In this document: piece by piece, positions 4,327-27,388 of the stretch
How the letters are laid out: every line of letters starts with the position of its first letter
Position numbering within the stretch: position 1 is the stretch's first letter
Origin: Moorena bouillonii PNG
GTDB lineage: Bacteria > Cyanobacteriota > Cyanobacteriia > Cyanobacteriales > Coleofasciculaceae
Direction: 5' to 3'
Length of the DNA: 35,463 nt
NCBI RefSeq assembly: GCF_001942495.1
Contig: NZ_MKZS01000001.1
Location: forward strand, 3,037,090-3,072,552
Made by a program: the position numbers and the translations under genes
Notes under the pieces: model-generated
What the model was told of the DNA's origin: nothing
Databases searched by the model: none
The model's input: only the letters and a program-made list of their open reading frames with translations

Positions 4327-4340
4327 AAAAATATATTGAA

Positions 4341-5240: not shown

Positions 5241-5276
5241 ATAGCAGTTCCTAAGCATATGCTTAGGAACTGCTAT
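5241..5276. repeat. 36-bp perfect palindrome
   Basis: Two 18-bp arms meet without a spacer: ATAGCAGTTCCTAAGCAT followed by its exact complement. It lies between the stop of the TPR gene (5301) and the start of the PIN toxin (5140), both on the minus strand. It could be a terminator hairpin without a U-tract, an operator, or a mobile palindromic repeat. Confidence 0.85.
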
Positions 5277-5300: not shown

Positions 5301-6875
5301 TCACCTTGACAAGTCTATTTCGCGTTTGATAGCTAAACTCTGTTGCTGGAAATCATTCGCTTTTGAATAGTCGCCCAAGGCACGGTAAGTAATGGCGATA
5401 TTGTTGAGAGAGTTAGCCTCACCGACGCGATCGCCTATTTCTCGTTTAATAGCCACACTCTGCTCGAAGTGTTCAATGGCCTTTCGGTAGTCTTTGAGGT
5501 TTCCGTAAACCATGCCAAGATTGTTCAGAGACCTAGCCTCACCTGAGCGATCGCGTATTTGTCGTGCAATAGCTACACTCTGCTGGAAGTTTTCAAGGGC
5601 CTTTCGGTACTGCCCCAGGGAATAGTAAATATTACCGAGATTGTAAACAGAATCAGCCTCACCGCTGCGATCGCGTATTTGTCTATAAATAACCACACTC
5701 TGCTGGTAGCTTTTAATTGCTTTTGGGTAGTCCCGCACAATACGGTAAGCATTACCGAGATTGTAAACAGAATTAGCCTCACCAAGGCGATCGCCTATTT
5801 CTCGATAAATAATCACACTCTGCTGGAGGTTTTCAATGGCTTTTGGGTAGTTCCGTAGTTTGTTGTAAGCAATACCTAAACCATCGATAGCAGGAAGTTC
5901 ACCAAGGCGATCGCCTATTGCTTGTGCAATGGTTAAACTCTGCTGGAAGTTTTCAATGGCCTTTTGGTAGTTTCCCAGGAAATAGTAAGAAAAGCCGAGA
6001 TTGCTCAGAGACTTAGCCTGACTTTTCTGATCGCCTATTTCTCGCTCAATAGCTAAACTCTGCTGGTAGAAATTAATAGCTTTTCGGTAATCCCCCAGAT
6101 TTTGGTAAGCATTACCGAGATTGCTCAGAGACTTAGCCTGACCACTGCGATCGCCTATTTCTCGCTTAATAGCTAAACTCTGCTGGTGAAAATCAATGGA
6201 TTTTCGGTAGTCCCCTAGATTTTGGTAAGCAATACCGAGATTGGTCAGAGACTTAGTCTGATTTTTCTGGTCGCCTATTTCGCGGCCAATAGCTAAACTC
6301 TGCTGGTGAAAATCAATGGCTTTTCGGTAGTCCCCCAGATTTTCGTAAACAATACCAAGATTGGCCAGGGAGTCAATCTCAACGTAGCGGTATTTGATTG
6401 CTCGTGCAATAGCCAAACTTTGCTGGAGGTTTTCAATCGCCTTTGGGTACTTTTTTAGCTTTCTGTAAGCAATACTGATATTGTTCAGAGAGTTAGCCTG
6501 ACCTTTGAGATCGCCTATTTCGCGGCTAATAGCTAAACTCTGCTGGTGGGAATCAATGCTCTTTTGATAGTCCCCTAGGTCTATGTAAACAAGACCGATA
6601 TTATTGAGAGATGACGCCTCACTAGGCCTATCGCCTATTGCTCGATAAATAGTCAGTGCCTTCTGCCAAGACTGCAATGCTTCCTGAAATTGCCTTAGTT
6701 TAAGCTGCATAAAACCTTGACTAACAAGTTGGTCAGCTTGAGCTTGACGGCTTTGTGACGTTTGAGCTAATGATGCAGAAGCTGGTAATAGGAGTGAATC
6801 ATTAAATAGTAACGTTGGGGAGAAACTACCTAATAAAGCCAGAAGGATAATTAATCGAAATTTTGGAAATTTCAT
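5301..6875 (-). CDS. exported TPR-repeat protein without CHAT domain
   Basis: The protein has 524 residues from the ATG at 6875. That start gives MKFPKFRLIILLALLGSFSP..., a clear signal peptide ending near SLAQ, and it matches the start of the TPR-CHAT gene at 13281. The frame continues upstream to 6971 but adds 32 non-homologous residues. The rest is about twelve TPR units of 40 residues (consensus NLG..Y..LGDY.KAI...QQSLAI.REIGDR.G.A) of the kinesin-light-chain-like TPR_12 type. It stops inside the last unit with no CHAT domain, unlike its paralogue. It may be an adaptor or a truncated copy. It is the last gene of the minus-strand CHAT/DUF3160 run. Confidence 0.9.
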   Translation of the reverse strand: MKFPKFRLIILLALLGSFSPTLLFNDSLLLPASASLAQTSQSRQAQADQLVSQGFMQLKLRQFQEALQSWQKALTIYRAIGDRPSEASSLNNIGLVYIDLGDYQKSIDSHQQSLAISREIGDLKGQANSLNNISIAYRKLKKYPKAIENLQQSLAIARAIKYRYVEIDSLANLGIVYENLGDYRKAIDFHQQSLAIGREIGDQKNQTKSLTNLGIAYQNLGDYRKSIDFHQQSLAIKREIGDRSGQAKSLSNLGNAYQNLGDYRKAINFYQQSLAIEREIGDQKSQAKSLSNLGFSYYFLGNYQKAIENFQQSLTIAQAIGDRLGELPAIDGLGIAYNKLRNYPKAIENLQQSVIIYREIGDRLGEANSVYNLGNAYRIVRDYPKAIKSYQQSVVIYRQIRDRSGEADSVYNLGNIYYSLGQYRKALENFQQSVAIARQIRDRSGEARSLNNLGMVYGNLKDYRKAIEHFEQSVAIKREIGDRVGEANSLNNIAITYRALGDYSKANDFQQQSLAIKREIDLSR

Positions 6876-6972
6876 GGCGATAACACAAAAAATAATAGAA
6901 TAAGGAATCGGGGGTTTTTCTGTTAAAAATTCACCCGTTACTTCGTTAATTTTTCCCAGTACAATAATCAAG

Positions 6973-7245
6973 CAAGGGCTGTGAATTAATTTTTTATCAA
7001 CCCACCTGTTGTCATAAATATGGCCAATTCTGAGGGAGGGTTTTATCCTAGGAATTAGCCAAACCTAGTTGAGCAAGGTTGCTGAGGGCATCAAACCACA
7101 ACCCTTTGGGCATACTGGAAGTTTGAAGCTCGAAAAAATTTATCTATGTATATAACAGTGTTAGATGGGTAAATTATGAAAACCAGTGGTATTTCTTTTT
7201 TCATTTACCCAAAACTAAGCCACTAATCAGTAAACCTTTTTGGAA
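6973..7245 (-). pseudogene. decayed remnant of DUF928 gene and of the CHAT-CHASE2 3' end
   Basis: Read on the minus strand, 7110-6973 encodes GLWFDALSNLAQLGLANS, a stop (7048-7050), then DKTLPQNW. This matches the C-terminal DUF928 segment LWFDALTSLAELRLANPQD, DKTLAQDW encoded near 18.4-18.5 kb. More stops follow. Next to it, 7120-7170 matches the intergenic block upstream of the intact DUF928 gene (19258-19310, including tataacagtgttag). Then 7203-7235 matches the 3' end of the CHAT-CHASE2 gene (19455-19490). Most of the DUF928 gene is deleted. A short piece around 7240-7255 resembles the start of the TPR gene (complement of atttcatggc). This is the footprint of an old duplication of the DUF928/CHAT-CHASE2 region. 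Confidence 0.85.
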
Positions 7246-7390
7246 ATTTCATGGCAATCAAACAAGACTTATTTCAGAAATCGGGAATAGCGGATCTCGG
7301 AACATGTAACAGTGGAAAATAATTCACGAAAATCGATTGAGCGCTACTCCCGACTCCCTACTACCCAGGAAGAGAGAACTAATTCAATAA

Positions 7391-9730
7391 TTAATCAACT
7401 ACAAGATAGCTTTTTGTCCAGTTGGGGCGAGGTGGAAGCTTGCCAGTTTGGATATCTTTTTTCCACTCAGAATCTGATTTACGGGATACTTCTGGCATCT
7501 CAAATTCATAATGGCTTAGCACTGGTCCAGCAAAGACCATTTTGTCTTTACCATTGTCCACTGCAATCATCAACAAATCGATATTACCCACCCCCTGGTG
7601 AAGTACACTGCCTGGATCTCCCACCATTGGCTCAGGTACATCTGTGTGTACATCCGCAACAATGGCATCCCACTTATCAGAATCCTCAGGTTTCTTATAG
7701 AAAAGGCTGGGATACCAACCGCTATAAGTCGGACCCCCTGAAGCAAACCGTTGAATCTCAACAACCTTTTCTAGGAAATTGCTTTGGGCTTCGGTAAGTT
7801 CCTGTTGTGCTAATTCCTTGAGTGCTATTTCCTTGAGGATAGTTAACTGCTGGCTGAAATTTTTGAAGAATTTAGTTTGTTTTTGCTGAATCTTTCGGAA
7901 GCGCTCTGGAAAGGGAGTGTTTTCAATTAGCTGCCCTGCCAGCACTGCCATTTTTTCAAAGCGTTCCCAGAATTCCGGTCTCGGCTCCACAAACCCGGCT
8001 GGATAGTAGCATAAGGTTCCACCGGTGTAAGATTGTTTGGCATAAAGGATGGTGTCGTGGCGCAATTGTGTCCATGACGCTAGTTGTGTATTGAGTGTCT
8101 TCATCCCCCAGGCACGGGTACGCATGGCTTCCGGGTATTTGGAGTCCGTAGTGGGTTTTGAAAGTTCCCGCAAGGTTGCCAGCCAATTCATGTAAAGGTT
8201 TTCTTCCCAGGCAGAAGGATTTAGCTTTTCAACTACATTAAAGGCTGCCGCTAAGTTGTGTTGATAGTTGAGACCATCTCGGAACTCATGCCCATTCTGG
8301 TTTGTGATCCGATCAACCAGTTCTGGTACTACTTGAGTGTTTCCTAGGGTGGCGAATGCGACATCTAATCCACTTGGTACACGGCGCTGAACTTTCTCAC
8401 CATTCCAAATAATATCATCGTAAACTACTTTGCTCAACATCCAGCTATCCAAAATAAACTTTTGACCGATAACTGTAAAGGAGTAAGGTATTATATCTTT
8501 AATCTGATCATCGTCTTCCGGACTAAAGTAAACATGACTCCTGATGTTTTGAAAACCTAGGTTGTTAGCTGAAATTTTAGTTTGCAGCTGCTCTAAGGTG
8601 GATAAATCTTTAATATCTGTCGGAGATTTAATCTTAGCTTGTTTTAATAGGTCAGCTAGTTGAGCAAACGTCATGGAATCAGTTGGACCGACAAAGGTCT
8701 GGAGCATTTGGTCAAACTGTTGCCATTGCTCGAACTTACCAGATTGTTTTAACAGATCATTGAGGATTATGGCTGCACCCAATTCCCGTGAAGAAGCCTC
8801 TTCCGGTTTACCTGCAATCCGTAGATCGACTCTACCGCACCACATTACTGCCTGGAAATATTTCTTAAGAGTCTCGGAGTTCTCATAATGCCCACGTACC
8901 TTGAATTGAGAAAAATCCATCTCGCGCTTACGCCCAAACAGCTCAAATTGCTGGAGTTGCTCTCCTTCTATGGCTTTGAGGGTTGCTGCCACACGGGCAT
9001 CCTGATTTAATTTGGTTTTAACTGTTTCTCCTGCCAATAACGAACGAGCGACTGCTAGAAAGTAGTCGGCATCAATTAAACTTAGGTCAAGGACACCATC
9101 GCCATATTGATTACTGGCTTCTGGGATTTTATCTGCCATTCCTGTGAGAATTTCATCTAGTGATGTGGCAAGATAACTTTCTTCTAGTTCTTCTAACATG
9201 GCGTCATAAGAACGATGCCAAGCATGAAGCAAGGCATCAGCGGAAACAAAAACTGGTAAATCGCTGCTATAGATTTGGTAGAATAATTGAGCGAAACTCT
9301 TTCTCCCCATGCGCTCACTGACAACAAAGCCTTGTTTCTTGAATACTGCCAGTTCATCTGAATTGAGGCGAAAGTTGTAGTGGGAATAATTTCCACGATT
9401 GGTCTTCTGATTATGCTTTTTCTGAGCAAGATTGAACAAGTTCCAAAATTTAGCCTTGGTCGGATTCCAACTAATTTTTTTTAGATACTTAACCTTGGCA
9501 TCGTAGCGTTTAGCAAATTCCTGGGGTGAAATCTGTCGGATTTTATCTAATTCCTGATCGAAGGTAGGGTTGTAACCAAAAACATCCGGTGACACTTCTG
9601 CTGAAGCTGGGTTGACCAAAAGTTTGGAACTGTCAATGCCATCTTCGAAGAAAGTATGGTTGCTCATCAGAATTGACAATACAATGATCGGAGCAATAAT
9701 TAGCTTGCTTAATTTATTAAAAAGCTTCAT
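7391..9730 (-). CDS. DUF3160 domain protein, exported
   Basis: The protein has 779 residues. Residues 1-45 form a signal peptide (hydrophobic IIAPIIVLSILM, then ...NPASAEV). The rest is a single DUF3160 domain, recognised by DVFGYNPTFDQEL, GFVVSERMG, SSDLPVFVSADALLHAWHRS, WTQLRHDTILYAKQSY, AGFVEPRPEFWERFEKM and ADVHTDVPEP. The biochemical role of the family is unknown. The conserved His, Asp and Glu residues in HAWH, RHD and DVHTD could be catalytic or metal ligands, which is inference. It is strongly similar to the first 790 residues of the fusion protein at 13443-18293. It lies downstream of the TPR-CHAT gene with a 521-bp repeat-containing gap, so it may have its own promoter. Confidence 0.92.
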   Translation of the reverse strand: MKLFNKLSKLIIAPIIVLSILMSNHTFFEDGIDSSKLLVNPASAEVSPDVFGYNPTFDQELDKIRQISPQEFAKRYDAKVKYLKKISWNPTKAKFWNLFNLAQKKHNQKTNRGNYSHYNFRLNSDELAVFKKQGFVVSERMGRKSFAQLFYQIYSSDLPVFVSADALLHAWHRSYDAMLEELEESYLATSLDEILTGMADKIPEASNQYGDGVLDLSLIDADYFLAVARSLLAGETVKTKLNQDARVAATLKAIEGEQLQQFELFGRKREMDFSQFKVRGHYENSETLKKYFQAVMWCGRVDLRIAGKPEEASSRELGAAIILNDLLKQSGKFEQWQQFDQMLQTFVGPTDSMTFAQLADLLKQAKIKSPTDIKDLSTLEQLQTKISANNLGFQNIRSHVYFSPEDDDQIKDIIPYSFTVIGQKFILDSWMLSKVVYDDIIWNGEKVQRRVPSGLDVAFATLGNTQVVPELVDRITNQNGHEFRDGLNYQHNLAAAFNVVEKLNPSAWEENLYMNWLATLRELSKPTTDSKYPEAMRTRAWGMKTLNTQLASWTQLRHDTILYAKQSYTGGTLCYYPAGFVEPRPEFWERFEKMAVLAGQLIENTPFPERFRKIQQKQTKFFKNFSQQLTILKEIALKELAQQELTEAQSNFLEKVVEIQRFASGGPTYSGWYPSLFYKKPEDSDKWDAIVADVHTDVPEPMVGDPGSVLHQGVGNIDLLMIAVDNGKDKMVFAGPVLSHYEFEMPEVSRKSDSEWKKDIQTGKLPPRPNWTKSYLVVD

Positions 9731-9810
9731 AATTAATCAGGAAACAGCGAATATAAAACAGAAAATAGACAACAGGGTTGGGAGCATGTCAACTTTGTAA
9801 TTAGGTAAAT

Positions 9811-9893
9811 AGATCCCCCCTAACCCCCCTTAAAAAAGGGGGGAATTAGATGGAAAAGTCCCCCTTATTAAGGGGGATTTAGGGGGATCTGAA
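9811..9893. repeat. C/G-rich hairpin element
   Basis: Nested inverted runs: gatccccccctaacccccc, then aaaaaaggggggaa, then a second hairpin tcccccttattaaggggga. It closely resembles 21855-21985. It is a dispersed non-coding element, possibly MITE-like. Confidence 0.8.
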
Positions 9894-10169
9894 TCAGGGA
9901 TTAACAAAATTGACATGCACCCACAGGGGTAAGCATATGCGCTACGCCCACGCTACGCGAACAGCTCTCAGCTTTGGCCTTAACGGCTTACCGCTTACTG
10001 CTAAATGCTTAGAAGCTATATAGCTGTTTACACCCAAGATGACAAATTAATAAAGACCTAGGTTGGTTTAGGTCTTTCCAAAAATAGTTCTGTTGCCTGT
10101 CTAGAATACTTATCAGTCTTGTTTTGACTATTTATGCAAAACGTTAAAGAAAGTTATCAATAACAGTTC

Positions 10170-10250
10170 TCCCCTACTCCCTACTCCCTACTCCCTACTC
10201 CCTACTCCCTATTCCCGACTCCCGATTCCCGATTCCCGATTCCCCATTCC
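10170..10250. repeat. heptamer tandem repeat
   Basis: Units of ctcccta turn into gattccc. The tract ends right at the stop codon of the TPR-CHAT gene (minus strand, stop at 10252). Confidence 0.85.
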
Positions 10251-10251
10251 C

Positions 10252-13200
10252 TCAAAGCGCCTCCCCAATCAAGGTAAATGCCGCCCAATCTTTCGGATTA
10301 CCTGACTTCGGAATCATGGTCAACATCGCTTGGCGCAACGCTTGAGCTTTATCCCCTGTGCGGTTAAGATTCCGATAAAACTCGGTCATCAATTCTGTGG
10401 TTTTATCATCAGGAATTGACCACAAGGAGACCATCACACTGGGAACACCGGCTGCAACTAAAGACCGAGATAAACCAATAACGCCCTCACTGTTGATGTG
10501 ACCGACTCCGGTATCGCAGGCACTGACTACTACTAGTTCCGCACTGAGTTTCATGGCAAAGATTTCTTCAGCAGTCAGTAGTCCGTCCTCTCCTGGAGAA
10601 GGAGCCAAGGCGATCGCACTCCCAATACCTCCAATACGCTTGGGATCAAATAACCCGTGGGTAGCAAAATGAATATACCTGGCCTTGGGCATCTGGCGTT
10701 TAACTATGGCTTCGGTAGCGTCTTGTCCCAATAGAGGTTGAGCCTTTAACTGAGAAGCAATGTATTTAGCTTCCTGTTCAGCACCATCGAGAGAACCTAA
10801 TTGTTCAGGTTCTTCTCCAGCAGCTGGTGGTACCTTGGGCATGGTAGGATTACCAACTACCAGGGCAGTTTGGGCTGAATTAGCAAGGTTTTTCCGTTTC
10901 TGATGGGTTAAGTCCAAGACTTGGATAGAAGGAGCAGTGAGGATAGTGTGTTTCTCTATCAAGTACTTTCCCTCCTGGTCTTGCAGGGCTGGGAAAGGCA
11001 CAGAAAACAGTTCTCTGTGAGGGATGAAGACTACACGGGCATTTTCATCCTTGGGCAGTAAGTCTGCAATCGGTTCAATCAACAGTTGATGAAGCTGTTG
11101 TAAGTGTGGTTTACCAATATTAGGGGAATCGACAATCCTGACAACATCAGTGATTGGGCGCTCGATTGTTACCCCTTCTTCCCACCCTGGTAACTTGAGT
11201 CGTAAAGTACCTTCTTGAGCATTAACTTCAACTACTTGCCAGGGGTCTGGGAAATCGTCATCCTTGATTTTGACCCAATCACCCTGGGACGGTTGCCGGG
11301 AAGACTGACTACTGCGACATTGACCATGGTCTGCAAGGCAAGCATATCCATTTTTAAGCAGCTGCTGGAGAGAGGTATCTGGAGGCAGTTGAACCGAGCG
11401 CCATTCAATTGTGCCTGTAGGCTGGATCACCCAAACATAGATTCCTTCATCGGGAATCATAGAGTATGCTACTAGTGTAGCCTTCTGCTGCTGGGCAATC
11501 TGTTTGATTTTCTCCAGGCTAGGCTTAGTTATTGGAGTATCTCGTTTTGGGGATAACCCCTTTGCCAGTAATTCCGCCAAGGCACGAGCACGTCCCCTCT
11601 CGGCAATTTCCAATGCAGTATCCGTTTTATTTTGAGCAATTAGAACTTGCTGCAAGTTGCGATAGGTATTAGATTGCTCTTCGGATAGGGTAATTTTCTG
11701 GTTATCTGGCAAGCCTGGTCGTAGAGATTCCTTAAGCTCGATTGCTTTGGTGAGGGTGGTTTCAGCTTGTTTAAGATTACCTGATTTAAACAGAGCATAT
11801 CCTAAGTTATTGAGCAAGTTTCCTTCCCCCTGCCGGTATCCTATTGCTCGTGCAATCGTTAAAGTTTGCTCGAAGAAATCAATAGCTTTTGGGTAGTCCC
11901 CCTGGAAAAGGTAAACAAGACCGAGATTGCCCAGAGAGTTAGCCTCACCTGAGCGATCGCCTATTTCTCCTGCAATAGCCAAATGCTGGTGGTGAAAATC
12001 AATAGCTTTTGGGTAGTCCCCCAGGGAAAGGTAAGCATTACCGAGATTGCCCATAGAGGTAGCCTCACCTTGGCGATAGCCTATTTCTCCTGCAATCTTT
12101 AAACTCTGCTGGAGGTTTTCAATGGCCTTTGGGTAGTCCCCCAGGTTTCTGTAAGCAACACCGAGATTGCCCAGAGAGTTAGCCTCACCTGAGCGATCGC
12201 CTATTTCTCGTGCAATGGTTAAACTCTGCTGGTGGTTTTCAATGGCCTTTGGGTAGTCCCCCAGGTTGTGGTAAGCAAGACCGAGATTGTTCAGTGAGTT
12301 AGCCACACCTTTGCGATAGCCTATTTCTCGTGCAATGGTTAAACTCTGCTGGAGGTTTTCAATGGCCTTTGGGTAGTCCCCCAGGTTGTTGTAAGTAAGA
12401 CCGAGATTGCCCAGAGAGTTAGCCACACCTTGGCGATTTCCTATTTCTCGTTTGATAACTAAACTCTGCTGGTGGTTTTCAATGGCCTTTGGGTAGTCCC
12501 CCAGGTTGTGGTAAGCAAGACCGAGATTGTTCAGTAAGTTAGCCACACCTTTGCGATTTCCTATTTCTCGTGCAATGGTTAAACTCTGCTGGTGGTTTTC
12601 AATGGCCTTTGGGTAGTCCCCCAGGTTGTGGTAAGCAAGACCGAGATTGTTCAGTGAGTTAGCCACACCTTTGCGATTTCCTATTTCTCGTGCAATGGTT
12701 AAACTCTGCTGGTGGTTTTCAATGGCCTTTGGGTAGTCCCCCAGGTTGTGGTAAGCAAGGCCGAGACCATTGAGAGATTTCGCCTCACCTTCACGGTCTC
12801 CTATTTCTCGTTTGATAACCAAACTCTGCTGGTGGTATTCAATGGCCTTTGGGTAGTCCCCCAGGTTTTGGTAAGTGAGGCCGAGACCATTCAGAGAGTT
12901 AGCCTCAGCTCTTCGATTGGCTATTGCTCGTGCAATGGTTAAACTCTGCTGGTAGTTTTCAATGGCCTTTGGGTAGTCCCCCAGGGTCTCGTAAGTGAGG
13001 CCGAGATTATTCAGAGAGATAGCCTGACCAAGGCGATTGTCTATTTCTCGATAAATAGTGAGTGCCCTCTGCCAAGACTGCAATGCTTCCCGAAATTGAC
13101 TCACTTTATACTGCTTACTACCTTGCTTAAAAAATCTGTCAGCTTCAGCTTTACGGCTTTCTATAGTTTGAGCTAGTGCTGAATAAGTTGGGAATAGGGT

Positions 13201-13281: not shown

Positions 13282-13442
13282 GGTTATTACCCCTATATCA
13301 ACTTGGAATCAACTCAAAGAACAGAATTCTATTTATTTAACGGTGGTAGAATAGCAAAACCATGCAAGTGCGATCGCAAAAGTCAGAATTTCCATTAATC
13401 TCAATCCAAGAAAGTGCGATCGCCTCACGAAAATTTGTTGCC

Positions 13443-16400: not shown

Positions 16401-18293
16401 TTGGGATTCTAAGGGAGTCTTTTTAAGCTGTTGGGCTGTTAGCCTTACCATTTGCTCAAAACGTTCCCAGAATTCTGGTCTTGGCTCAACGAAACCAGCC
16501 GGATATTCGCATGCCAAAAAAATACCATAGCTTTGTTTGGCGTAGAGAATGGTATCGTGACGCAACTGCGTCCATGAAGCTAACTGGGTGTTGAGGGTTT
16601 TCATGGCCCAAGGCTGAGTTCGCATAGCTTCAGGATATTTGGAATTTGAGGTAGGTACTGAAAGTTCACGCAACGTTGCCAGCCAATTCATGTAAATGTT
16701 GTCTTTCCAAACAGATGGGTCTTGTTGCTCGATTACATTTTTGGCTGCTGCTAAGTTATTTTGGTAGTTAAAACCAACTTTTGGCTGCTGCTTCTCAAGA
16801 TTGGTAATACGCTCAACGAGATTGGGAGTAACCTGATTGTTATCCAATGCAGCAAAGGCTACATCCAAAGCTGTTGGTCTATTCTGTTTAATGAAAGTAC
16901 CATCCCAAATTTTTGAAACATCGACTACCTGAGACATTACCCAACTATCCAAAACAAACTTTTGACCTAATATTGTGAATGATCTGGGTAATTGTGGTTT
17001 TTCTTCCTTGAATAGTAAGTGGTAATGACCTCGGATATTTTGAACACCAAATTTTCCATCCAAGATAGTATTTTGCAGTTGTTCTAGGCTTGACAGACTG
17101 TTGACATTTGCTGGAGATTTAATCTGTGCTTGTACCAAAAGTTCATCCATTTCAGCAAAAGTCATAGAATCTGTCCAACCAACAAAAGTTTGGATAATTT
17201 CATCAAATCGCTGCCATAACTCAAAATTCCCTGATTTTTTAAGAAGGTCATGAAAAATAATCGCTGCCCCCAGTTCTCGTGGAGAGGCTTCTTCAGGTTT
17301 ACCAGCAATACGGAAGTCAATTCTGCCACACCACATCATTGCCTGGAAATACTTCCTAAGTCTTTCAGAATTTTCATAATGACCCCTTGGTTTAAATTGA
17401 GAAAAATCTACCCGGCGCTCTCGTCCAAACAACTTAAATCCCTGTAATTGTTGAGCTTTAACAAAGTTGATAGTTTCAGCAACACGCTCATCTTGATTTA
17501 AGTAAGTCTTGACGGGTTCATCAGCTAGATCAGATTCTGGAGATGCTTCGTTGTTAGATTTCCCTACAATTATTTGTAGTCTTTTATTTTTCGACTGTTT
17601 AGCAGAATTGGGTTTAAGCAAGGAACGAGCTACAGCTAGGAAATAATCAACATCCTTTAAACTTGATTCTAGTTCTCCATTACCATATTCTTTTGCTGCC
17701 ACAGGGATAGTTTCTGCCATACCCTGAAGTATTTTTTCTAGAGATGGAGCTAAAACCTTTTCTTCTAGTTCTTTGAGCATGGCATCGTAGGACATATGCC
17801 AGGCATGGAGAATGGAGTCAGCGGAAACAAAAACAGGTAAGTCGTTACTATAGATGCGATAGAACATCCTACCAAAACTCTTTGTCCCGAGGCGCTCACT
17901 GACTACAAATCCATTTTTCTTGAAAACGCTAAGTTCATCTTGGTTCAGTCGAAAATCGTAGTAGAGTTTCTCGTGCTTTTTTGGATCTCGATTGAATAAA
18001 TCCCAGTATTTAGCTGTGGTTGGATCCCAACTAATTCCTTGAATATAATCAGCATTGGCATCATACCTTTGGGCAAATTTTTCCGTTGACATCTGCCCAA
18101 TTTTATTCCATTCTTCTTCAAAGGCAGCATTGTAACCGAAAGTATCACTTGTTGTTTGAGCAAAAGCTCTTTTGGCAAAAAAGTCAGAGCCATTAATGGA
18201 ATTGATCAGGAAGGGCTGATTACTGACAATAATAAACAGTGCCACCAAAAAACTAAGAATCAGCTTTTTTGATTTCTTGAAATGTTTCATCAC
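13443..18293 (-). CDS. giant DUF3160-TPR-CHAT fusion protein
   Basis: The protein has 1616 residues. Residues 1-45 are signal-peptide-like (hydrophobic LILSFLVALFIIVSN, ending near ...RAFAQ). DUF3160 spans about 50-790 with the same landmarks as the stand-alone copy (SNDLPVFVSADSILHAWH, WTQLRHDTILYAKQSY, ADVHTS). It has one extra low-complexity insert near 225-260. About nine TPR units occupy about 800-1145. A CHAT domain spans about 1180-1616 with His1479 (HLATHG) and Cys1529 (LSACKTG). The frame is continuous with no stop or frameshift at the joints. The combination joins into one chain the products of the two downstream genes, DUF3160 and TPR-CHAT. It starts 60 bp after the DUF928 gene, so it is probably in the same transcript. 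Confidence 0.93.
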   Translation of the reverse strand: MMKHFKKSKKLILSFLVALFIIVSNQPFLINSINGSDFFAKRAFAQTTSDTFGYNAAFEEEWNKIGQMSTEKFAQRYDANADYIQGISWDPTTAKYWDLFNRDPKKHEKLYYDFRLNQDELSVFKKNGFVVSERLGTKSFGRMFYRIYSNDLPVFVSADSILHAWHMSYDAMLKELEEKVLAPSLEKILQGMAETIPVAAKEYGNGELESSLKDVDYFLAVARSLLKPNSAKQSKNKRLQIIVGKSNNEASPESDLADEPVKTYLNQDERVAETINFVKAQQLQGFKLFGRERRVDFSQFKPRGHYENSERLRKYFQAMMWCGRIDFRIAGKPEEASPRELGAAIIFHDLLKKSGNFELWQRFDEIIQTFVGWTDSMTFAEMDELLVQAQIKSPANVNSLSSLEQLQNTILDGKFGVQNIRGHYHLLFKEEKPQLPRSFTILGQKFVLDSWVMSQVVDVSKIWDGTFIKQNRPTALDVAFAALDNNQVTPNLVERITNLEKQQPKVGFNYQNNLAAAKNVIEQQDPSVWKDNIYMNWLATLRELSVPTSNSKYPEAMRTQPWAMKTLNTQLASWTQLRHDTILYAKQSYGIFLACEYPAGFVEPRPEFWERFEQMVRLTAQQLKKTPLESQEIQTKQVKFLEQFAQKLGILKEIASKELAQQPLTKVETKFLKDIVEIIRQGSGSPKYEGWYPSLFYSDPEDSVEWDALVADVHTSIGEREPDIVLHEGVGDVDMLMIAVENGDDRMVFAGPVMSHYEFEVPSVMRKSDSEWKQDIQNKNIPPRPDWTKDYLVSPLSVKTSIGQQPRYKALQLQKEALQYLDQGQFQEAMSNYDQVLSLTRELKDTAWEAKILYSMAVEYTNREQYQQALELYQQALPLTQKIGDRTIESIILSNMGRIHAELAQYSQALEFFDKSSDVSQQIGNRVTQGRSINSIQAIQSSLEDNKKALELFQQALEINRKIGDKRGEIFSLTNIASIYGDQGEYQKALKLYNQVFDISLKIGDCEGIAVSLNDSGLIYYELGDKKQALELYRKALDFCEKYGFYSEKAKTMLNIGKAYSGMEQFQEALHFYQQALAIFQELKLSDDQANALAHIGSTFMSMGKLNKAKATLYQAIDLIESVIRPNKDLHKISMFENKVFPYKALQYVLIQQNEREEALEVSERGRTRAFVELLAKRLAVNSEEIADFKPISLKQIRQIAVEQNSTLVEYSILPSNSKEFKLYSWVILPTGKIEFRAVDLPQETSLEKLVSNGYFCILQDECRSGANQTLPTVGDWVKLNDDQFDQPWQVVDIQQDTLKLRLENWEEDTTIPRPITDVVAIVKAFNRKSLQQLHELLIEPIADLLPKNENDRVIFIPHQQLFLVPFPALQDKDGNYLIQRHTILTAPSIEVLGLTHKKRKQLPNSVQGAVVVGNPTMPRVTTKPGEKPEQLPELPHAQEEAIKIAELLNTQALTGNRATKAAILPKLLQARIIHLATHGLLSDFKGLGIPGAIALAPSGTGEINDGLLTAGELLQMKLNAELVVLSACKTGQGDITSDGVIGLSRSLVAAGVPSIIVSLWSVPDAPTADLMKEFYQNLKSTGDKAQALRQAMLTMIPKSGNPKDWAAFTLIGEAN

Positions 18294-18353
18294 AAACCTG
18301 CTTAAATGCTAGTGAATAGTGAACAAAAAAAATCAGGTTAATAATCAAAACTA

Positions 18354-19151
18354 TTACTCAACTGTGCAACAATCAACTAAAGGCTGTGAGTCAATTTCCT
18401 TCAAACCCACCTGCTCTAATAAATCTGCCCAATCCTGAGCCAGGGTTTTATCCTGGGGATTAGCTAAACGCAGTTCAGCTAGACTAGTTAGGGCATCAAA
18501 CCACAACCCTTGTTTGGCATAAACAACAATACGCTCCCGGGGATTCTTGCCTTCTAACTGCTGCTCCAAATCATCAGTGATAGAGATTCTTTCAACACCA
18601 CCACTAACGAAATCATTATCTAATGGGTCTGTGGGATTGCAAATCACAGAGAAACGCCAATGATATAAATCTTCCACAACAAGTCCTGAGACCGTTTCCG
18701 GTAGAGTTATCTTGACTATTCCGGGTGTATTTTGGAGCGTAAACGTTTCTTTGTAGATCTCCTTAAGTTCCTTATTCCGCAACCGAAATTCTGCTTGGAG
18801 TTTCCGGTTATCGGAATAGGGCACATAAAACCAAAAGGTAGGACGTTCACTAGTCGTTAAGCCGAAATTAGTACCAGGTACTAAAGCAATAAATTCCTCA
18901 AAGGGACAGTCGTTCCGACTTCCTGCACCTTTACGTTTACCAGGTGCTCCTTTAGGAGGTAGAGTAAGCTCTAATTTAACTGGAACTGGCAATTCAGCTA
19001 TAGGGGTTAAGGTGTTTTCCCCTTGCTTGAGCAAGTTAGTTAGGGGTTCAATTGCCTCTATAGCTTTAACTATGTGAGATTCGAAACTAAATAACCAACT
19101 CAGAGTCAGAGCAATAATTACCTTTTGTAGACGAAATTTATTACGATTCAT
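18354..19151 (-). CDS. DUF928 domain protein, exported
   Basis: The protein has 265 residues from the ATG at 19151, which has AGGGA 11 bases upstream; an ATG at 19163 in the same frame lacks room for a ribosome site. The N-terminus (KVIIALTLSWLFSFESHIVKAIEA) is a signal peptide. DUF928 landmarks are PGKRKGAGSRNDCPF, TTSERPTFWFYVPY, LYHWRFSVICN and the C-terminal LWFDALTSLAELR. DUF928 is a cyanobacterial family of unknown role, often found beside CHAT-CHASE2 genes. Here it sits 283 bp after CHAT-CHASE2 and 60 bp before the fusion gene. A decayed partial copy lies at 6973-7245. Confidence 0.92.
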   Translation of the reverse strand: MNRNKFRLQKVIIALTLSWLFSFESHIVKAIEAIEPLTNLLKQGENTLTPIAELPVPVKLELTLPPKGAPGKRKGAGSRNDCPFEEFIALVPGTNFGLTTSERPTFWFYVPYSDNRKLQAEFRLRNKELKEIYKETFTLQNTPGIVKITLPETVSGLVVEDLYHWRFSVICNPTDPLDNDFVSGGVERISITDDLEQQLEGKNPRERIVVYAKQGLWFDALTSLAELRLANPQDKTLAQDWADLLEQVGLKEIDSQPLVDCCTVE

Positions 19152-19257
19152 GATACAAAACATCCCTAATTTACTTAAGAGATTACCTATCTAATCAAGC
19201 TCTTAATCAAGATGCCCTGAAACTAAGGAACCAGCCATCTAAACCACCTGCCATTTT

Positions 19258-19310
19258 GAGGCTGGAAAAAATTAACCTATTTATATAACAGTGTTAGTTT
19301 TGAAAATTAT
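19258..19310 (-). promoter_or_regulatory. conserved block upstream of DUF928, candidate promoter
   Basis: On the minus strand the block reads ...ctaacactgttatataaat... with a TATATAA-like -10 box about 130 bp before the DUF928 ATG. It is conserved in the decayed copy at 7120-7170, while the DUF928 gene body there is mostly deleted. I could not place a convincing -35 box, so the promoter call is tentative. Confidence 0.4.
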
Positions 19311-19446
19311 GCAAAACACTGGAATTATTTTTTTCAGCGTTGCTGTGACAACTGTAAGCGCACCGGGGATACTTTTAGAGTTTTGTATCCCCCAAAATAG
19401 GGAGCTATGGAGGAAAATTATACCCAAAATCAGCAAATACATTTTG

Positions 19447-21804
19447 TCAATTACCCAAAACCGAGCAACTAACCGATACAGCCCTTTGGTAACCAACAAT
19501 CATCCCTGTAGCCACAAAAGCCAAACCCGAAGGGATTAATGGTATCCACCAACCTTGAATAAAGACAACAAAGCAAACACCAGATAAAATTACCAGATTG
19601 GCGATACCCACTCCCACCCAATGAAAGAGTCGTTTACAGACCAACACCAAGAAACCCCCTAGACTCCCCCAAGCCCAAATCCACAAAAACTCTCCCCACT
19701 CGGACCATATCCACAACGGTTGTTGTCCATCTTTCACCGCACTCAGAATCTGACTAACCATCTGAGCATGAATAAATACACCACGCATCTCTATAGTCTG
19801 GTTTGAATTCCGAGTAAAAGGAGTGGAAAAATCATCTTGAACGCTAGGGGCAGTAACACCAATCAAAACTACCCGGTCTTTAACCCAACTCGGTTCAAAT
19901 TGATCCGTTAGAATCTGTTTTAGGGTAACCCTTTGGGCGATATCACCAGGAGTGCGATAATCCAGTAGCATCTGATAGCCAGCATTACTCGTTGCGGAGT
20001 AATTACCAGCATAACCAGGCAACGACCTTAACGTGGTTTCCCCTAATTGCACCTCATCTTCTAGTGTGACCTTAGGGTCAATCCCGTCTGCAGCTAAGTA
20101 ATGTAGTGCTAACTGCAAACTTAGAGACGTCTCAGTCTGACAAGGGGAATCACGGTTAAAGGTAGCATACCAAAGATAACGGCGCAGTACGCCATCGGAG
20201 TCAATCACCACATCCGTAAAGCCCAAACGTTCCGGTGGCACTTCTGGGGGTGGGGCAATACCACCATAGTTACGAGTGGGGTTACTAGCTTGACAGACAG
20301 CAAAAAAGTTATCCATCCTTGGCAAGCGATCCGCCAAATCCTGATATTCGTCACTGACCGGAAAATCCCGATAGATATCCAAGCCAATGGCACGAGGGTG
20401 ATGAGCCTGTAATTTATCCAACAGTTGAGCCAAAGCCGCATCAGACAGGGACCACTTACGCTTCATACCCTGGTCATCCTGATACTGAAAATCCTCTTCA
20501 GTTATTTCAACCACTAACAGCCTCGGGTCAACCCCTTGGTCGGGTCGCCAGCGCATAAATTGGTCATAAGCCTGTAACTCCCAGGGTTGGATTACCCCCA
20601 ATGGCCGCACCACCATCAGGGCAAGGGTAACCAGAAAACTGGCAATCACAGCCGTGCGGGGTAACTGCCAAGGAGACTGGTTGATCGGACCATAGCGTAA
20701 TTCTTTCCAAGTGGGGGGTTGAACGGTAGGGTTTTGGCAAACCACCGGTAACCAACTGGCACAGGGATACTGTTGTTCCCAGCCATGTAATTTTTCCCGT
20801 GCTTCTGCCACCGAGCTATACAGAGACTCACCCCGGATGTAAGCTTCCAGAAAATACCGCAAAAACTTGGGTGATACTGGGTCTGGCACTTTCTCTGCCA
20901 TCACAATCACCTGGGGCAAATACAAATCCTGCTGTGCTGCCAACTGGTAGGCTAAGCCGAGACCATCACAGGAATTAAAAATAGCTAACTGCAAGCCTCG
21001 TGCAATCGCATTCTTCAAGGCAAACCGCAGATCATCGATAGTCAACCGTTCCGTCTGATTGAGTTGAATTTCCCCCCGCTGCCCCTCTTGGGAAGTGCCA
21101 CTGTGACCAGCAAAAAACAGAATATCCCACCCCTGCTGCCATAACTGCTGATTCAACTCCGATGCCTGGGGTTCCTGCCGCCAGGTAATTTGTGCCCCCG
21201 CCTTTCCCGCCAACTCCTCCAACGCCTGCTGATCTGCTTGCTGGTCAAGACCGGCACCCTGTCCCAAAATTGCCAGAATTCTGACCTTGCCCTTGGGGGT
21301 AGTCTGCCGGTTAAGGGGGTTGGGACAATCGTATTCAAGGGCACTCAGGGCAACGTCTGCCTGGGCTTCCGCCAGTAAATCCCAGCGGTGCCAGGGAAAC
21401 CGACGCAGCCAGGGATTATTGGTCTGTAACAGAAGTTGAAATTTTTTCCCCGAGCGCAATAACTTATCCCGAATCGAGCGAAACTCTGGGTCAGTATTGA
21501 GCCAGTGATTAAGACTCTCTTCCAAAACCTCAGCCCCTTGCCGACAAGCCGCAAAGGCTTCACCCCGCTGGGATGAATTGGTCACCTGTTCGGCATTGGC
21601 ACTCAGAGCACGAAATAGCATTTCCAAACTCAGATACCGTTGCTGCCAATGGCGATAACAGTTGAGTAAGTCTCGATTCCCCGACAACCGCCCTTTAATC
21701 CGAGTTTGGGACGGAGAATGGAGATCCCCTTGCCGAATTTCCAGGGTGGCATCAAACCCCTGCTCAATTTCTCCGTCTAATATTAACGTTAACAGCCTCT
21801 TCAT
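19447..21804 (-). CDS. CHAT-CHASE2 transmembrane sensor protein
   Basis: The protein has 785 residues from the ATG at 21804 (MKRLLTLILDGEIEQGF), the usual start of this family; 11 further upstream residues in frame are not conserved. The N-terminal CHAT domain (about 170-365) has His234 in FFAGHSG and Cys279 in FNSCDGLG. A membrane segment follows at about 384-400. A CHASE2 domain (about 405-695) includes LLVVEITEEDF, PRAIGLDIYRD and VVLIGVTAPSVQDDFSTPF. Three C-terminal membrane segments (about 705-770) complete it. With no signal peptide, the topology places CHAT in the cytoplasm and CHASE2 outside, so an external signal could control the protease. It lies 326 bp after DUF1822; that gap holds repeats. 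Confidence 0.93.
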   Translation of the reverse strand: MKRLLTLILDGEIEQGFDATLEIRQGDLHSPSQTRIKGRLSGNRDLLNCYRHWQQRYLSLEMLFRALSANAEQVTNSSQRGEAFAACRQGAEVLEESLNHWLNTDPEFRSIRDKLLRSGKKFQLLLQTNNPWLRRFPWHRWDLLAEAQADVALSALEYDCPNPLNRQTTPKGKVRILAILGQGAGLDQQADQQALEELAGKAGAQITWRQEPQASELNQQLWQQGWDILFFAGHSGTSQEGQRGEIQLNQTERLTIDDLRFALKNAIARGLQLAIFNSCDGLGLAYQLAAQQDLYLPQVIVMAEKVPDPVSPKFLRYFLEAYIRGESLYSSVAEAREKLHGWEQQYPCASWLPVVCQNPTVQPPTWKELRYGPINQSPWQLPRTAVIASFLVTLALMVVRPLGVIQPWELQAYDQFMRWRPDQGVDPRLLVVEITEEDFQYQDDQGMKRKWSLSDAALAQLLDKLQAHHPRAIGLDIYRDFPVSDEYQDLADRLPRMDNFFAVCQASNPTRNYGGIAPPPEVPPERLGFTDVVIDSDGVLRRYLWYATFNRDSPCQTETSLSLQLALHYLAADGIDPKVTLEDEVQLGETTLRSLPGYAGNYSATSNAGYQMLLDYRTPGDIAQRVTLKQILTDQFEPSWVKDRVVLIGVTAPSVQDDFSTPFTRNSNQTIEMRGVFIHAQMVSQILSAVKDGQQPLWIWSEWGEFLWIWAWGSLGGFLVLVCKRLFHWVGVGIANLVILSGVCFVVFIQGWWIPLIPSGLAFVATGMIVGYQRAVSVSCSVLGN

Positions 21805-21854
21805 TGATCTATTTTTGACAATTTTAAGTGTTTCCAAGAATAGCAGGAGTCCGC

Positions 21855-21985
21855 AAAGTCCCCCTTATTAAGGGGGATTTAGGGGGATCAAAAGCCTGAA
21901 CAAAATTCCCAATGGTCGATCCCCCCCAGCCCCCCTTAACAAAGGGGGGAGTCGGAAAAGTGCCCCTTATTAAGGGCAAGGCTGA
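21855..21985. repeat. C/G-rich hairpin elements
   Basis: Consecutive inverted runs: tcccccttattaaggggga, atcccccccagcccccctt with aaaggggggag, and tgccccttattaagggca. They resemble 9811-9893 and lie between DUF1822 and CHAT-CHASE2, where they may act as partial terminators. Confidence 0.75.
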
Positions 21986-22018
21986 TTTCCTGAAAAACCT
22001 CTTGCCTCTTGCCGTCTT

Positions 22019-22062
22019 GATGCAGTCGCTCATGGGGGAAACCCCCAAGACCGCGCTGCATC
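22019..22062. repeat. 44-bp palindromic dispersed repeat, copy 2
   Basis: Identical over 44 bp to 2198-2241, with the same preceding gtctt. It lies 70 bp downstream of the DUF1822 stop codon (read on the minus strand). Confidence 0.85.
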
Positions 22063-22130
22063 GCTTTTGCCTCTTGCCTTTTGCCTTAAAAAGCTCCTCA
22101 ACCAAATAATAATTGCTATATCTCTCTCGA

Positions 22131-23057
22131 TCAAACCTGAAACCTTTCCGTTACACTAGCTTCACCTAAAGAAACCTGAATTCCGAAGTCATCTCCCTGT
22201 TGGGCATTAAACTGATATTGGATGAATTCATCATTACTTCTGGCGGTTACTTCGGTAAAAATATCACCGGTTGCAGTCAGTACCGATAGTTTCAAATTCG
22301 GAGGCAAGGTTAGTGCTTCACCGTTGGGATAAACTTGGGCTCGAACGCTGGCAGTTTCCTTATCAATTTTTCCAACAGTAATAATTAAAACGACAGGATT
22401 ACCCGCTAATTCTAGCCCTAAATCAAATAAATCAATTGGTTTAGCTCGTTGTTGCTGGTCTTCGGTATTTCTAAATGCTGGTCTAAGTTGTGGAGACAGC
22501 AAATCGGTAACCGACTGCCAATCTACTTGAAAATTACCCTTAAACCATTCCAGTAAGTTCACCACATTTGACTCCGGCTCTGGTAATTGCTCTGGTAATT
22601 GGTTAATTAACTGCTCAAGAGACTGGATTTTACTAATCTCCAAGCTTCCTCCCAGTGCAGTTTTGGCAAATCCTAGCAGTTTAGCTTGATTACTTGCTTG
22701 ATTAATTTCTACCACCACATAACCGACTCGGTCTTGGCGACTTTCTGGTGGGATGTGACAAACTTGGTCACCAGGTAAAACAGGACGACATTCCAATTTC
22801 CCCCAACCTTTAACTATCAAGTCGGATACATTCATCAGCGATCGCAGGGCTGGATTGCTGCTATCACTTGCTGGTAAATCAGTTTCTACTTCCAGACACT
22901 GTAAGTAGAAATTTACCGCATAAACTGCTAATGTATTTAGGTAAACGTCTTGAGCTTTGTCTGGTTCGTGCTGTTCCCGACTAAAGGTTTCTGCTAGTTG
23001 ATACCAATCTCTGGTAATAGGCACAGAAAAGGCTAATTTTTCCGTTAAGTTATTCAT
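22131..23057 (-). CDS. DUF1822 family protein
   Basis: The protein has 308 residues. Family landmarks are the N-terminal ...FSVPITRDWYQLAETF and AQDVYLNTLAVYAVNFYLQCLEVETDL, followed by WGKLECRPVLPGDQVCHIPPES and the mid-region VGYVVVEI. There is no signal peptide or membrane span, so it is likely cytoplasmic. The family is cyanobacterial with unknown role and is typically encoded between a sigma-70-like gene and CHAT-CHASE2, as here. It starts 36 bp after the sigma factor stop, so the two are almost surely cotranscribed. A direct interaction with the sigma factor or CHAT domain is possible but is inference. Confidence 0.92.
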   Translation of the reverse strand: MNNLTEKLAFSVPITRDWYQLAETFSREQHEPDKAQDVYLNTLAVYAVNFYLQCLEVETDLPASDSSNPALRSLMNVSDLIVKGWGKLECRPVLPGDQVCHIPPESRQDRVGYVVVEINQASNQAKLLGFAKTALGGSLEISKIQSLEQLINQLPEQLPEPESNVVNLLEWFKGNFQVDWQSVTDLLSPQLRPAFRNTEDQQQRAKPIDLFDLGLELAGNPVVLIITVGKIDKETASVRAQVYPNGEALTLPPNLKLSVLTATGDIFTEVTARSNDEFIQYQFNAQQGDDFGIQVSLGEASVTERFQV

Positions 23058-23093
23058 TATTACTCTCTCGATACATTGAATCTTGTTTGTCAG

Positions 23094-23750
23094 TTATTCC
23101 TGTAAGTATTCCTTAAACGTGTCAGAAAAATACTTGCAACAGCGCCAGTAGAAACTTTGCACCGTTGACGCTTGCTTTGGCTTTAACCCAACTGCTACAG
23201 CAGTCTGTTGCCAACTCTTCCGGTCTAGATATAAAAGAGCTATAGTTCTGAAGTTGGCTTTAGGATGTCCTTTAACGTGTTTGCTGGCAAACAGCCCATC
23301 AGAGTCTTCTTCAATACACTGACGTATAAGCTGTGAAGGTAACGGAGTGTCTTCTGGTTGCGGAATAGTATCTAAATAAGTCATACCTGATTGATTGACT
23401 TTACCCCCATCGGAAGAGTTTATTGGTGCATCTAGTGAGTACTCCCGTCCCTGTTTGGTATGTCGTTTCTTGGCATCAATCAACCGCCACTTAAGAACAC
23501 TATTAATCCAGTTAATCACCGGAGCTGTCGGTTTATAAGTGTCAATTTTTTTAAACACATACAACCAAGTCTCTTGAAGTGCTTCATCGTAAACCTCTTG
23601 GGGAGTGTCATATCTCCTGCGAGATAATCTGCCGGATGTTTGAATCATGTGAATCAGCCGAGTCAGGGCTAGACGACGGCCACGGGTTTGTGGGGAATGC
23701 TGTTGAGCCTCCAAAGCTAGCTGTTGCAGTCGTTCGTCCAGTTCGTCCAT
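23094..23750 (-). CDS. sigma-70 family RNA polymerase sigma factor (ECF-like)
   Basis: The protein has 218 residues. A region-2-like segment is at about 48-100 (TPQEVYDEALQETWLYVFKKI, then WINSVLKWRLIDAKKRHTK). A region-4-like helix-turn-helix is at about 163-208 (NFRTIALLYLDRKSWQQTAVAVGLKPKQ). No region 1.1 or 3 is evident, which fits an ECF-like factor. It is the first gene of the minus-strand run and would direct transcription of unknown promoters, possibly its own. A divergent small gene begins 188 bp away. No anti-sigma gene is recognised nearby. Confidence 0.87.
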   Translation of the reverse strand: MDELDERLQQLALEAQQHSPQTRGRRLALTRLIHMIQTSGRLSRRRYDTPQEVYDEALQETWLYVFKKIDTYKPTAPVINWINSVLKWRLIDAKKRHTKQGREYSLDAPINSSDGGKVNQSGMTYLDTIPQPEDTPLPSQLIRQCIEEDSDGLFASKHVKGHPKANFRTIALLYLDRKSWQQTAVAVGLKPKQASTVQSFYWRCCKYFSDTFKEYLQE

Positions 23751-24123: not shown

Positions 24124-24160
24124 TTGTGGGCTTTGGGCTGGTTTTGGATGCGATCGCTAA

Positions 24161-26304: not shown

Positions 26305-26342
26305 AGAATTGATCCAATGAAGACTAATTATTGAATTACGCC

Positions 26343-26365: not shown

Positions 26366-26378
26366 TGGCCTTATTTAA

Positions 26379-27375: not shown

Positions 27376-27388
27376 TGGCCTTATTTAA

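Follow-up and report, generated by a model that had tools for sequence, protein, structure and literature searches.

A CHAT-CHASE2 and ECF-like sigma factor cassette with a predicted envelope sensor in Moorena bouillonii PNG

The window analysed here is a stretch of 35,463 nucleotides from the 8.3-Mb genome of the filamentous cyanobacterium Moorena bouillonii PNG (G000:C1:3037090-3072552, G000 being this genome; L-numbers below are labels of compared loci). It carries eight minus-strand genes, which encode, from the sigma end, an extracytoplasmic function (ECF)-like sigma factor, a DUF1822 protein, a CHAT-CHASE2 protein, a DUF928 protein, a DUF3160-TPR-CHAT fusion, a TPR-CHAT protein, a DUF3160 protein and a TPR-only protein (Table 1). 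All eight reading frames are present where a first-pass annotation, made from the letters alone, had placed them, with families that agree with Pfam; a degenerate DUF928 remnant (genome G000:C1:3044062-3044196) had been missed. The first four genes, from sigma to DUF928, form what is here called the head, and the others the tail. The intergenic gaps, starting at the sigma end and taking 21804 as the CHAT-CHASE2 start, are 36, 326, 283, 60, 161, 521 and 419 nt. Predicted sigma-70 promoters and terminators are in no excess in the window (29 against 33.0 in shuffles, and 24 against 19.8, respectively). Since the 521-nt gap upstream of DUF3160 (9731-10251) holds a terminator-like hairpin (9877-9859), of a kind in no excess over shuffles, the DUF3160 and TPR-only genes may or may not form a separate transcript, a possibility that the first-pass annotation had overlooked.

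Table 1. Features of the cassette and its tail, in positions of the window
Feature	Position	Strand	Basis or remark
ECF-like sigma factor, first cassette gene	23094..23750	-	weak Sigma70_r2 match alone; region 2 and 4_2 matches at family level
DUF1822 protein; proposed sigma-holding partner and CHAT substrate	22131..23057	-	Pfam E 6.9e-67
CHAT-CHASE2 protein	19447..21804 (listed TTG start: 21837)	-	Pfam CHAT and CHASE2
DUF928 protein, probably exported; proposed outside partner of CHASE2	18354..19163	-	Pfam E 8.1e-62
DUF3160-TPR-CHAT fusion, N-terminal hydrophobic (signal-like) segment	13443..18293	-	Pfam
TPR-CHAT protein, N-terminal hydrophobic (signal-like) segment	10252..13281	-	Pfam
DUF3160 protein, N-terminal hydrophobic segment	7391..9730	-	Pfam E 2e-178
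Degenerate DUF928 remnant	6973..7107	-	profile positions 140-184, four internal stops, E 8.3e-6
TPR-only protein	5301..6971	-	Pfam; paralogue of the TPR part of TPR-CHAT
Candidate degenerate promoter ATTTAAAAA-N14-TGCATAGAA	23820..23851	-	69 nt before sigma start

The CHAT-CHASE2 protein is characterized by a CHAT domain (Pfam E 4.1e-11) and a CHASE2 domain (E 2.3e-71). Because Met12 is conserved in 97% of 99 relatives, its start is more likely at 21804, the listed TTG codon being probably 11 codons early; Cys290 counted from the TTG codon is Cys279 counted from 21804, where the dyad is His234/Cys279, and it is the Cys279 named in the first-pass annotation. In the TTG numbering, H245 and C290 are invariant in 130 and 129 aligned sequences, respectively, and the dyads H875/C922 of the TPR-CHAT protein and H1479/C1529 of the DUF3160-TPR-CHAT fusion are invariant in 87 aligned sequences. 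The His/Cys pair reported by the first-pass annotation for all three CHAT proteins is thus not only present but invariant across aligned relatives. In the 785-residue form of CHAT-CHASE2, a hydropathy scan places hydrophobic segments at 381-405, before CHASE2, and at 731-771, after it, and the protein appears to be membrane-anchored, with a CHAT domain predicted to be cytoplasmic and a sensor outside. The part ahead of CHAT is also conserved among the aligned relatives and may correspond to the EACC2 domain; E2CHAT is our own name for proteins of this type, with the conserved N-terminal part, CHAT and a variable C-terminus. Ten scanned CHAT proteins called CHASE2-less carry periplasmic-binding-protein domains (five; families Peripla_BP_6 and PBP_like_2), pentapeptide repeats (three), STAND-WD40 (one, nSTAND1-WD40) or nothing else known (one). 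Against PDB sequences, CHAT-CHASE2, DUF3160 and DUF928 gave nothing convincing, with no Csx29 match for CHAT-CHASE2; for the TPR-CHAT protein, TPR proteins are among the 60 matches listed. The genome holds 51 CHAT matches, 49 of them above the cut-off.

The assignment of the first gene is made at family level. The window protein alone gives only a region 2 match (Sigma70_r2, E 0.0029), whose 17.8 bits fall under the 24-bit cut-off. In its family of 26 members, the window protein included, Sigma70_r2 is found in eight and Sigma70_r4_2 in seven (E <=0.1), and region 3 has no match among the 18 families listed for the 26 members. The top five PDB matches of a 26-member profile are all ECF sigma chains (E 0.010-0.019); the same profile also lists FAS death-domain chains (E 0.065-0.13), and a 6-member profile found no sigma chain. 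The earlier call of a sigma-70-like factor is therefore upheld by the family matches to regions 2 and 4_2 but not by the window protein alone, and we take the gene to encode an ECF-like sigma factor, an assignment that is weak for this protein alone, regions 2 and 4 without region 3 being seen at family level only. Other arrangements occur at the same end of the cassette. In the variant cassettes L020 and L301, a protein of about 500 residues replaces the short sigma factor, and two of four scanned upstream proteins of this type have a weak C-terminal Sigma70_r4_2 match. In L021 (G000:C1:5834000-5853900), three sigma-like genes of 381-384 codons are arrayed with DUF1822 genes or fragments, and the array continues with E2CHAT-CHASE2, DUF928 and a TPR-CHAT-type gene.

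The sigma and DUF1822 genes are closely coupled: in 55 of 71 same-strand pairs they are at most 40 nt apart or overlap, with a median of 25. The closest named relatives of the window DUF1822 protein are from Moorena metagenome-assembled genomes (93-94% identity). Its structure model (predicted local distance difference test score, pLDDT, 88; predicted template modelling score 0.55) has an N-terminal alpha/beta domain and a C-terminal beta-sandwich, joined by a less certain stretch at about 155-200, and a W-rich stretch at residues ~165-190 is well conserved. A DUF1822 profile run against PDB sequences gave no Csx30 match, and fold comparison of the model returned generic Ig-like and beta-sandwich proteins, mostly over residues 202-308. 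An RsgI4 sensor domain stands at a middling Z (5.8) among the matches listed for the DUF928 and DUF1822 models.

Recurrence of the cassette was examined in two sets. The named-genome set consists of the 80 DUF1822 loci that scored best against an alignment of DUF1822 proteins, the window's among them; the other comprises 120 regions from a 79-genome sample, 80 around DUF928 and 40 around DUF1822, with DUF928 regions left out where they were orthologues in sister genomes, fragments or part of a last batch of about 20. The domain models were home-made from the window's own genome and then from the 80 loci; they missed weak CHASE2 domains and, in the own-genome stretches, recognised 10 DUF1822 reading frames against 16 Pfam matches, some of the latter being parts of the same gene. 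A species may occur twice across the two genome sources, which the dereplicated counts below address. Among the 87 DUF1822 reading frames of the named genomes, a few of them pieces of split genes, E2CHAT lies downstream within 1.2 kb in 82, with CHASE2 in 72; DUF928 is next on the same strand in 64, a sigma gene lies upstream within 0.6 kb in 38, and the full order sigma / DUF1822 / E2CHAT-CHASE2 / DUF928 is found in 22. The corresponding figures for the 38 DUF1822 reading frames of the 79-genome sample are 24 with E2CHAT, 15 with CHASE2, 13 with DUF928, 25 with sigma and 8 with the full order; in this sample, 52 of the 79 genomes have a DUF1822 match and 24 a DUF928 match. Recurring linkage of sigma, DUF1822 and CHAT-CHASE2 in other genomes, which the first-pass annotation had proposed as a check, is thus found.

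Several paralogous cassettes are present in the M. bouillonii genome. Two of them (L017 and L018, 41 kb apart) have the order sigma / DUF1822 / E2CHAT-CHASE2 and are probably a recent duplication, since their reading-frame lengths and scores are identical. The cassette may be dispensable in some relatives, because L036 (Moorena sp. SIO3I8) has an interrupted E2CHAT gene and L040 (Moorena sp. SIO3H5) a split DUF1822 gene. Relatives of the CHAT-CHASE2 protein also occur in 59 plasmid records that match it in part, nine of them over at least 80% of the query, and 15 of the 59 are typed as conjugative; L300 and L301 are two such records, the former with a filamentous haemagglutinin gene just upstream.

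The presence of DUF928 follows that of CHASE2. This association was tabulated for 115 CHAT genes, after 16 of 131 with less than 2 kb downstream had been dropped. DUF928 lies within 1.5 kb of E2CHAT in 76 of the 86 cases with CHASE2 and in none of the 29 without it; after dereplication, the fractions are 23/27 against 0/25 at 70% identity, 10/13 against 0/20 at 55%, and 3/4 against 0/13 at 45%. On a tree of 114 E2CHAT domains, one more short sequence having been dropped, CHASE2 needs eight changes and DUF928 nine. Looked at from the other side, 56 of the 92 DUF928 genes found in 80 regions are accompanied by CHASE2 at a distance of up to 1.5 kb, as part of E2CHAT-CHASE2 in 16 cases and of another CHASE2 protein in 40, and in the window's own genome 10 of the 13 intact DUF928 matches are within 2.6 kb of one of 18 CHASE2 matches. 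Ten scanned CHASE2 proteins near DUF928, of which the sample provided eight and the own genome two, comprise five cyclases (one with trypsin), four kinases and one GGDEF-EAL protein. The DUF928 protein is probably exported, its N-terminus resembling a signal peptide by eye, although the hydropathy scan shows no segment above threshold there; its AlphaFold2 model (pLDDT 82) is a beta-sandwich followed by four helices, and the structures that this model resembles are generic Ig-like domains, with E values that all exceed 0.001. Other genes also adjoin DUF928. TPR-CHAT genes lie within 4.5 kb of 36 of the 92 DUF928 genes, and a linked cluster of 33 genes was found within 4 kb of 35 of 101 DUF928 genes; three scanned members of this cluster are two two-partner secretion exoproteins and one ShlB-type transporter, and no such exoprotein or transporter gene is among the 14 window proteins scanned with Pfam.

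Alignments of regions upstream of sigma genes contain a two-box motif, TTTTGTAAC-N13/14-TGCGTAAAA, the boxes and spacing of which we take to resemble those of ECF promoters. Of three patterns, the middle one occurs before 20 of the 79 sigma genes; it precedes none of the 570 remaining cassette genes, and of reading frames outside these groups only 2 of 1289. With a matrix whose threshold of 13.7 was set at 1% of 500 controls, the motif is present upstream of 23 of 78 sigma genes, but of only one of the 572 remaining cassette genes. CHASE2 is present in 14 of these 23 motif-bearing cassettes, six others have E2CHAT without CHASE2, and no E2CHAT was seen in three. A scan of 81 genomes of the same order gave 35 sites, against two for the reversed pattern. 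Thirty of these were examined, one of them at a contig end, the five on G116 contigs being left out. Eight precede cassette sigma genes (five of these are training sequences) and one has an E2CHAT gene as second gene; two are upstream of two-partner exoproteins, three of trypsin-like proteins with signal-like N-termini, two of DUF4347-DUF11 proteins and one of an RTX protein. These eight exported-protein-type sites are 0-0.5 kb upstream of the gene, except for one two-partner exoprotein, which is a later gene at 1.9 kb. The candidate site before the window sigma gene is kept in position and spacing in L035, L036 and L040. A first, clade-specific promoter pattern was uninformative: it matched the own genome 20 times, its reversed control did so 18 times, and in the window it recovered nothing but the site from which it had been derived.

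The tail is less regular than the head. In L035, L037, L038 and L040 the order sigma / DUF1822 / E2CHAT-CHASE2 / DUF928 is followed by TPR-CHAT, and the L039 stretch ends where TPR-CHAT begins. Within the stretches compared, DUF3160 is found in only one of these five loci, L040, with a copy that is 90% identical. DUF3160 was rejected as a conserved part of the system: among 292 sampled cyanobacterial genomes it occurs in one, the window's own, and in the family it occurs in 3 of 20, once fused to leucine-rich repeats (L295:1288-4668, in another genus of the family) and once as a fragment. The proposal of the first-pass annotation that DUF3160 belongs to the system is not borne out by these counts. 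The window DUF3160 protein shares 59% identity with the corresponding half of the fusion, the TPR-only protein is 56% identical to the TPR part of TPR-CHAT over 520 residues, and no other DUF3160-CHAT fusion was found in 221 stretches compared. Local duplication seems to have given rise to the fusion, the second DUF3160, the remnant of DUF928 and the TPR-only paralogue. Judging from their N-terminal hydrophobic segments, both TPR-CHAT proteins, DUF3160 and the TPR-only protein are likely to be exported. On two Deinococcus plasmids and one Bacteroides plasmid, the three viewed of four with a relative, DUF3160 is followed by a CapA-family gene, and this adjacency hints at a surface-polymer role of DUF3160.

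Other features of the window lie outside the genes discussed so far. A 61-codon reading frame with a hydrophobic N-terminal part (23938-24123, plus strand) is divergent from the sigma gene and is kept near the cassette in L035, L036, L037, L039 and L040 (60-98% identity). A tandem repeat with a 17-bp unit (24160-24240, 4.8 copies, 98% match) is located between the sigma gene and the next divergent gene, and another array, with a 40-bp unit, is found at 4022-4333 (7.8 copies, 98% match). Downstream of the TPR-only gene, a perfect 36-bp palindrome (5241-5276) has a 34-bp core that occurs once in the genome at up to three mismatches. On the minus strand at 25333-28297, the reading frames at 25333, 26379 and 27389 have a common internal CTTGTTCAATGC-type repeat, and the first of them has DUF4351.

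Taken together, the domain content, the invariant dyads, the recurrent linkage, the DUF928-CHASE2 association and the motif in relatives are observations, which we read as follows. The head would be a signalling cassette of the EACC2 type, in which CHAT and an ECF sigma factor are combined with a sensor of the envelope. CHASE2, kept outside the membrane by the CHAT protein, and the probably exported DUF928 would read an outside or periplasmic state, and this sensing would activate the cytoplasmic CHAT peptidase, which would cut DUF1822, probably in the stretch between its two domains, and so free the sigma factor. Once free, the sigma factor would activate the operon that encodes it, together with a group of genes for exported or surface proteins; positive autoregulation is general among ECF factors. 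The exported TPR-CHAT proteins would act outside, as partners of the DUF928/CHASE2 side, and DUF3160 and its fusion to TPR-CHAT would be local additions. The inferred parts are proteolysis, the double role of DUF1822 as substrate and inhibitor, sigma release, the ligand and the set of genes that the window sigma factor controls, and we see the whole model, with cleavage and sigma release included, as evenly poised between right and wrong.

A number of results weigh against this model. No sigma gene was found directly upstream of DUF1822 in 49 of the 87 named-genome cases. The CHAT proteins of L020, L022 and L023, which were counted as CHASE2-less and have no DUF928, contain partial CHASE2 domains according to Pfam (E 9e-12 to 1e-7); with these counted in, the DUF928 figures become 76/89 and 0/26. 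For 36 of the 92 DUF928 genes, no CHASE2 gene lies within 1.5 kb, and the tree test cannot reach significance, because there are only four independent pairs, of which about three are concordant and none opposed. Neither a recognised anti-sigma fold nor Csx30 is among the fold matches listed for DUF1822, an absence from the listing that does not in itself speak against such a fold. As to the motif, 55 of 78 sigma genes have no site above threshold, and seven of the 23 that do are one close Nostocales group. Since the motif was chosen from the same upstream regions, the genome scan is the fairer test, and in the other 211 genomes it gives little excess (15 sites against 10 in the control); moreover, at 13 of the 30 sites examined, what follows is another kind of gene, no clear gene or the end of a contig. 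The window site itself scores 8.6, below 13.7, and 25 of 600 control upstream regions reach 8.5; no strict match to the motif was found in the own genome by the genome scan. The regulon of the window sigma factor cannot be read from the motif, owing to this sub-threshold site and the lack of a strict genome match, and the factor may have drifted to another promoter. The surface-signal cascade proposed by the first-pass annotation agrees with the motif before sigma and exported-protein genes in relatives; the site of the window itself is degenerate.

The same evidence bears on three alternatives. The strongest is that the locus is not one system: the head would work alone, and TPR-CHAT, DUF3160 and TPR-only would be a separate exported set that landed here. 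The near absence of DUF3160 from the sampled genomes, the gaps of 521 and 419 nt, the terminator-like hairpin (with the absence of excess noted above) and the occurrence of TPR-CHAT genes near DUF928 on either strand all fit this view, to which we give a good deal of weight while holding it somewhat less probable than not. Against it, TPR-CHAT is near 36 of 92 DUF928 genes and follows DUF928 in close relatives, so that at least TPR-CHAT seems linked and only DUF3160 and TPR-only look accidental. It is also conceivable that CHAT cuts something other than DUF1822, be it the sigma factor, the linker to the CHASE2 domain of the same protein or a regulator encoded elsewhere, with DUF1822 as a partner or adaptor of the sigma factor. 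The W-rich stretch of DUF1822 could serve a stable interaction, the closeness of the two genes is expected for any complex, and there is no known cleavage site. The gene order and the two-domain layout nevertheless resemble those of sigma, Csx30 and Csx29, where the sigma-binding protein is the substrate, and we consider another target unlikely.

An immune or cell-death cassette, in which CHAT would cleave itself or proteins of the cell upon invasion or stress and the sigma factor would mount a defence response, agrees with the autopeptidase activation proposed for EACC2 systems in the parts of the published account that treat them, where the ECF sigma factor is the ultimate step (Kaur and colleagues, eLife 2021, e70394). 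Relatives are found on plasmids, and the genome contains many paralogous copies. Conversely, among Pfam-scanned proteins the motif sites of relatives precede exoprotein and exported-protease genes, and in the eight window proteins the models of PADLOC (2023 library) recognise nothing but TPR repeats. The DUF928/CHASE2 pair also accompanies cyclases and kinases, which suggests ordinary signalling. We judge a defence role improbable. Beyond the envelope-signalling model itself, a broader reading, which we put forward tentatively and would not bet on, is that a caspase-fold protease serves as a membrane receptor for envelope signalling in filamentous cyanobacteria, with a sigma factor that would drive an exoprotein and exported-protease regulon via TTTTGTAAC-N13/14-TGCGTAAAA, exported TPR-CHAT as a second protease layer outside, and the Ig-like DUF928 as a general outside partner of CHASE2 whatever the output domain.

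The core of the locus is not undescribed, as the first-pass annotation had it, because sigma, DUF1822 and CHAT-CHASE2 already appear in the EACC2 section of the same eLife article (eLife 2021, e70394). Of that annotation's interpretation as a whole, the core linkage and the CHAT-sigma analogy stand, but the novelty of the core and the membership of DUF3160 do not. Two results are new with respect to the literature searched, namely that DUF928 goes with CHASE2 and that relatives have the motif ahead of genes for exported proteins: the open-licence papers of PubMed Central contained no report of a DUF928-CHASE2 link, none of the TTTTGTAAC/TGCGTAAAA motif (the cyanobacterial ECF promoter literature was only sampled), and no paper in which CHASE2, the CHAT domain and cyanobacteria came together. 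CHAT proteins are numerous in this cyanobacterium, and the arrangement has been framed around immunity and cell death in the sections of eLife 2021 e70394 that describe it. The association with CHASE2 gives the uncharacterised DUF928 family a testable role, and the motif makes the targets of the sigma factor measurable.

Three known systems can be compared with the cassette. The EACC2 systems of eLife 2021 e70394 have, according to the section devoted to them, a constant EACC2 and caspase domain and a variable C-terminus, for which CHASE2 is named; except in the TRADD-N group, most of their neighbourhoods contain genes for an ECF sigma factor and DUF1822. A caspase-fold domain with its dyad, a CHASE2 C-terminus and the two neighbours are all encountered in the window. 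The same section makes no mention of DUF928, exported TPR-CHAT, DUF3160, a promoter or a regulon, and it calls DUF1822 a TPR protein, whereas the window DUF1822 has no TPR match in Pfam and no TPR in its structure model.

In type III-E CRISPR systems, Csx30 holds an ECF-like sigma factor inactive by binding it, and is itself cut by Csx29 (PMC10028731); the CHAT-sigma precedent invoked by the first-pass annotation is therefore apt. Common to both are a CHAT peptidase and an ECF-like sigma factor, along with a partner that binds the sigma factor, a role proposed here for DUF1822, and autoregulation of the locus is proposed there too, in the parts of PMC10028731 that describe the sigma factor. 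By contrast, the trigger described in that paper is RNA, acting through Cas7-11, and Csx29 is a TPR-CHAT protein, whereas here the CHAT protein appears to be membrane-anchored, with its sensor outside. Judging by the place of its gene and by its two domains, DUF1822 could be the counterpart of Csx30; as no sequence match, and none among the fold matches listed, links the two, it would only work like Csx30, without membership of that family. No Cas families were found by the Pfam scan of the 14 window proteins, and no search was aimed at Cas7-11 or CRISPR arrays.

RpoE/RseA/DegS, which PMC10028731 also names, is an example of protease-released ECF sigma factors. That system has in common with the cassette an envelope signal, a protease and a sigma factor. 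An RseA-like protein was not recognised in general scans of the window proteins, no search having been aimed at RseA. In the cassette, unlike RpoE/RseA/DegS, the protease has a caspase fold, is predicted to be cytoplasmic and is fused to the sensor, and the proposed inhibitor, DUF1822, is predicted to be soluble.

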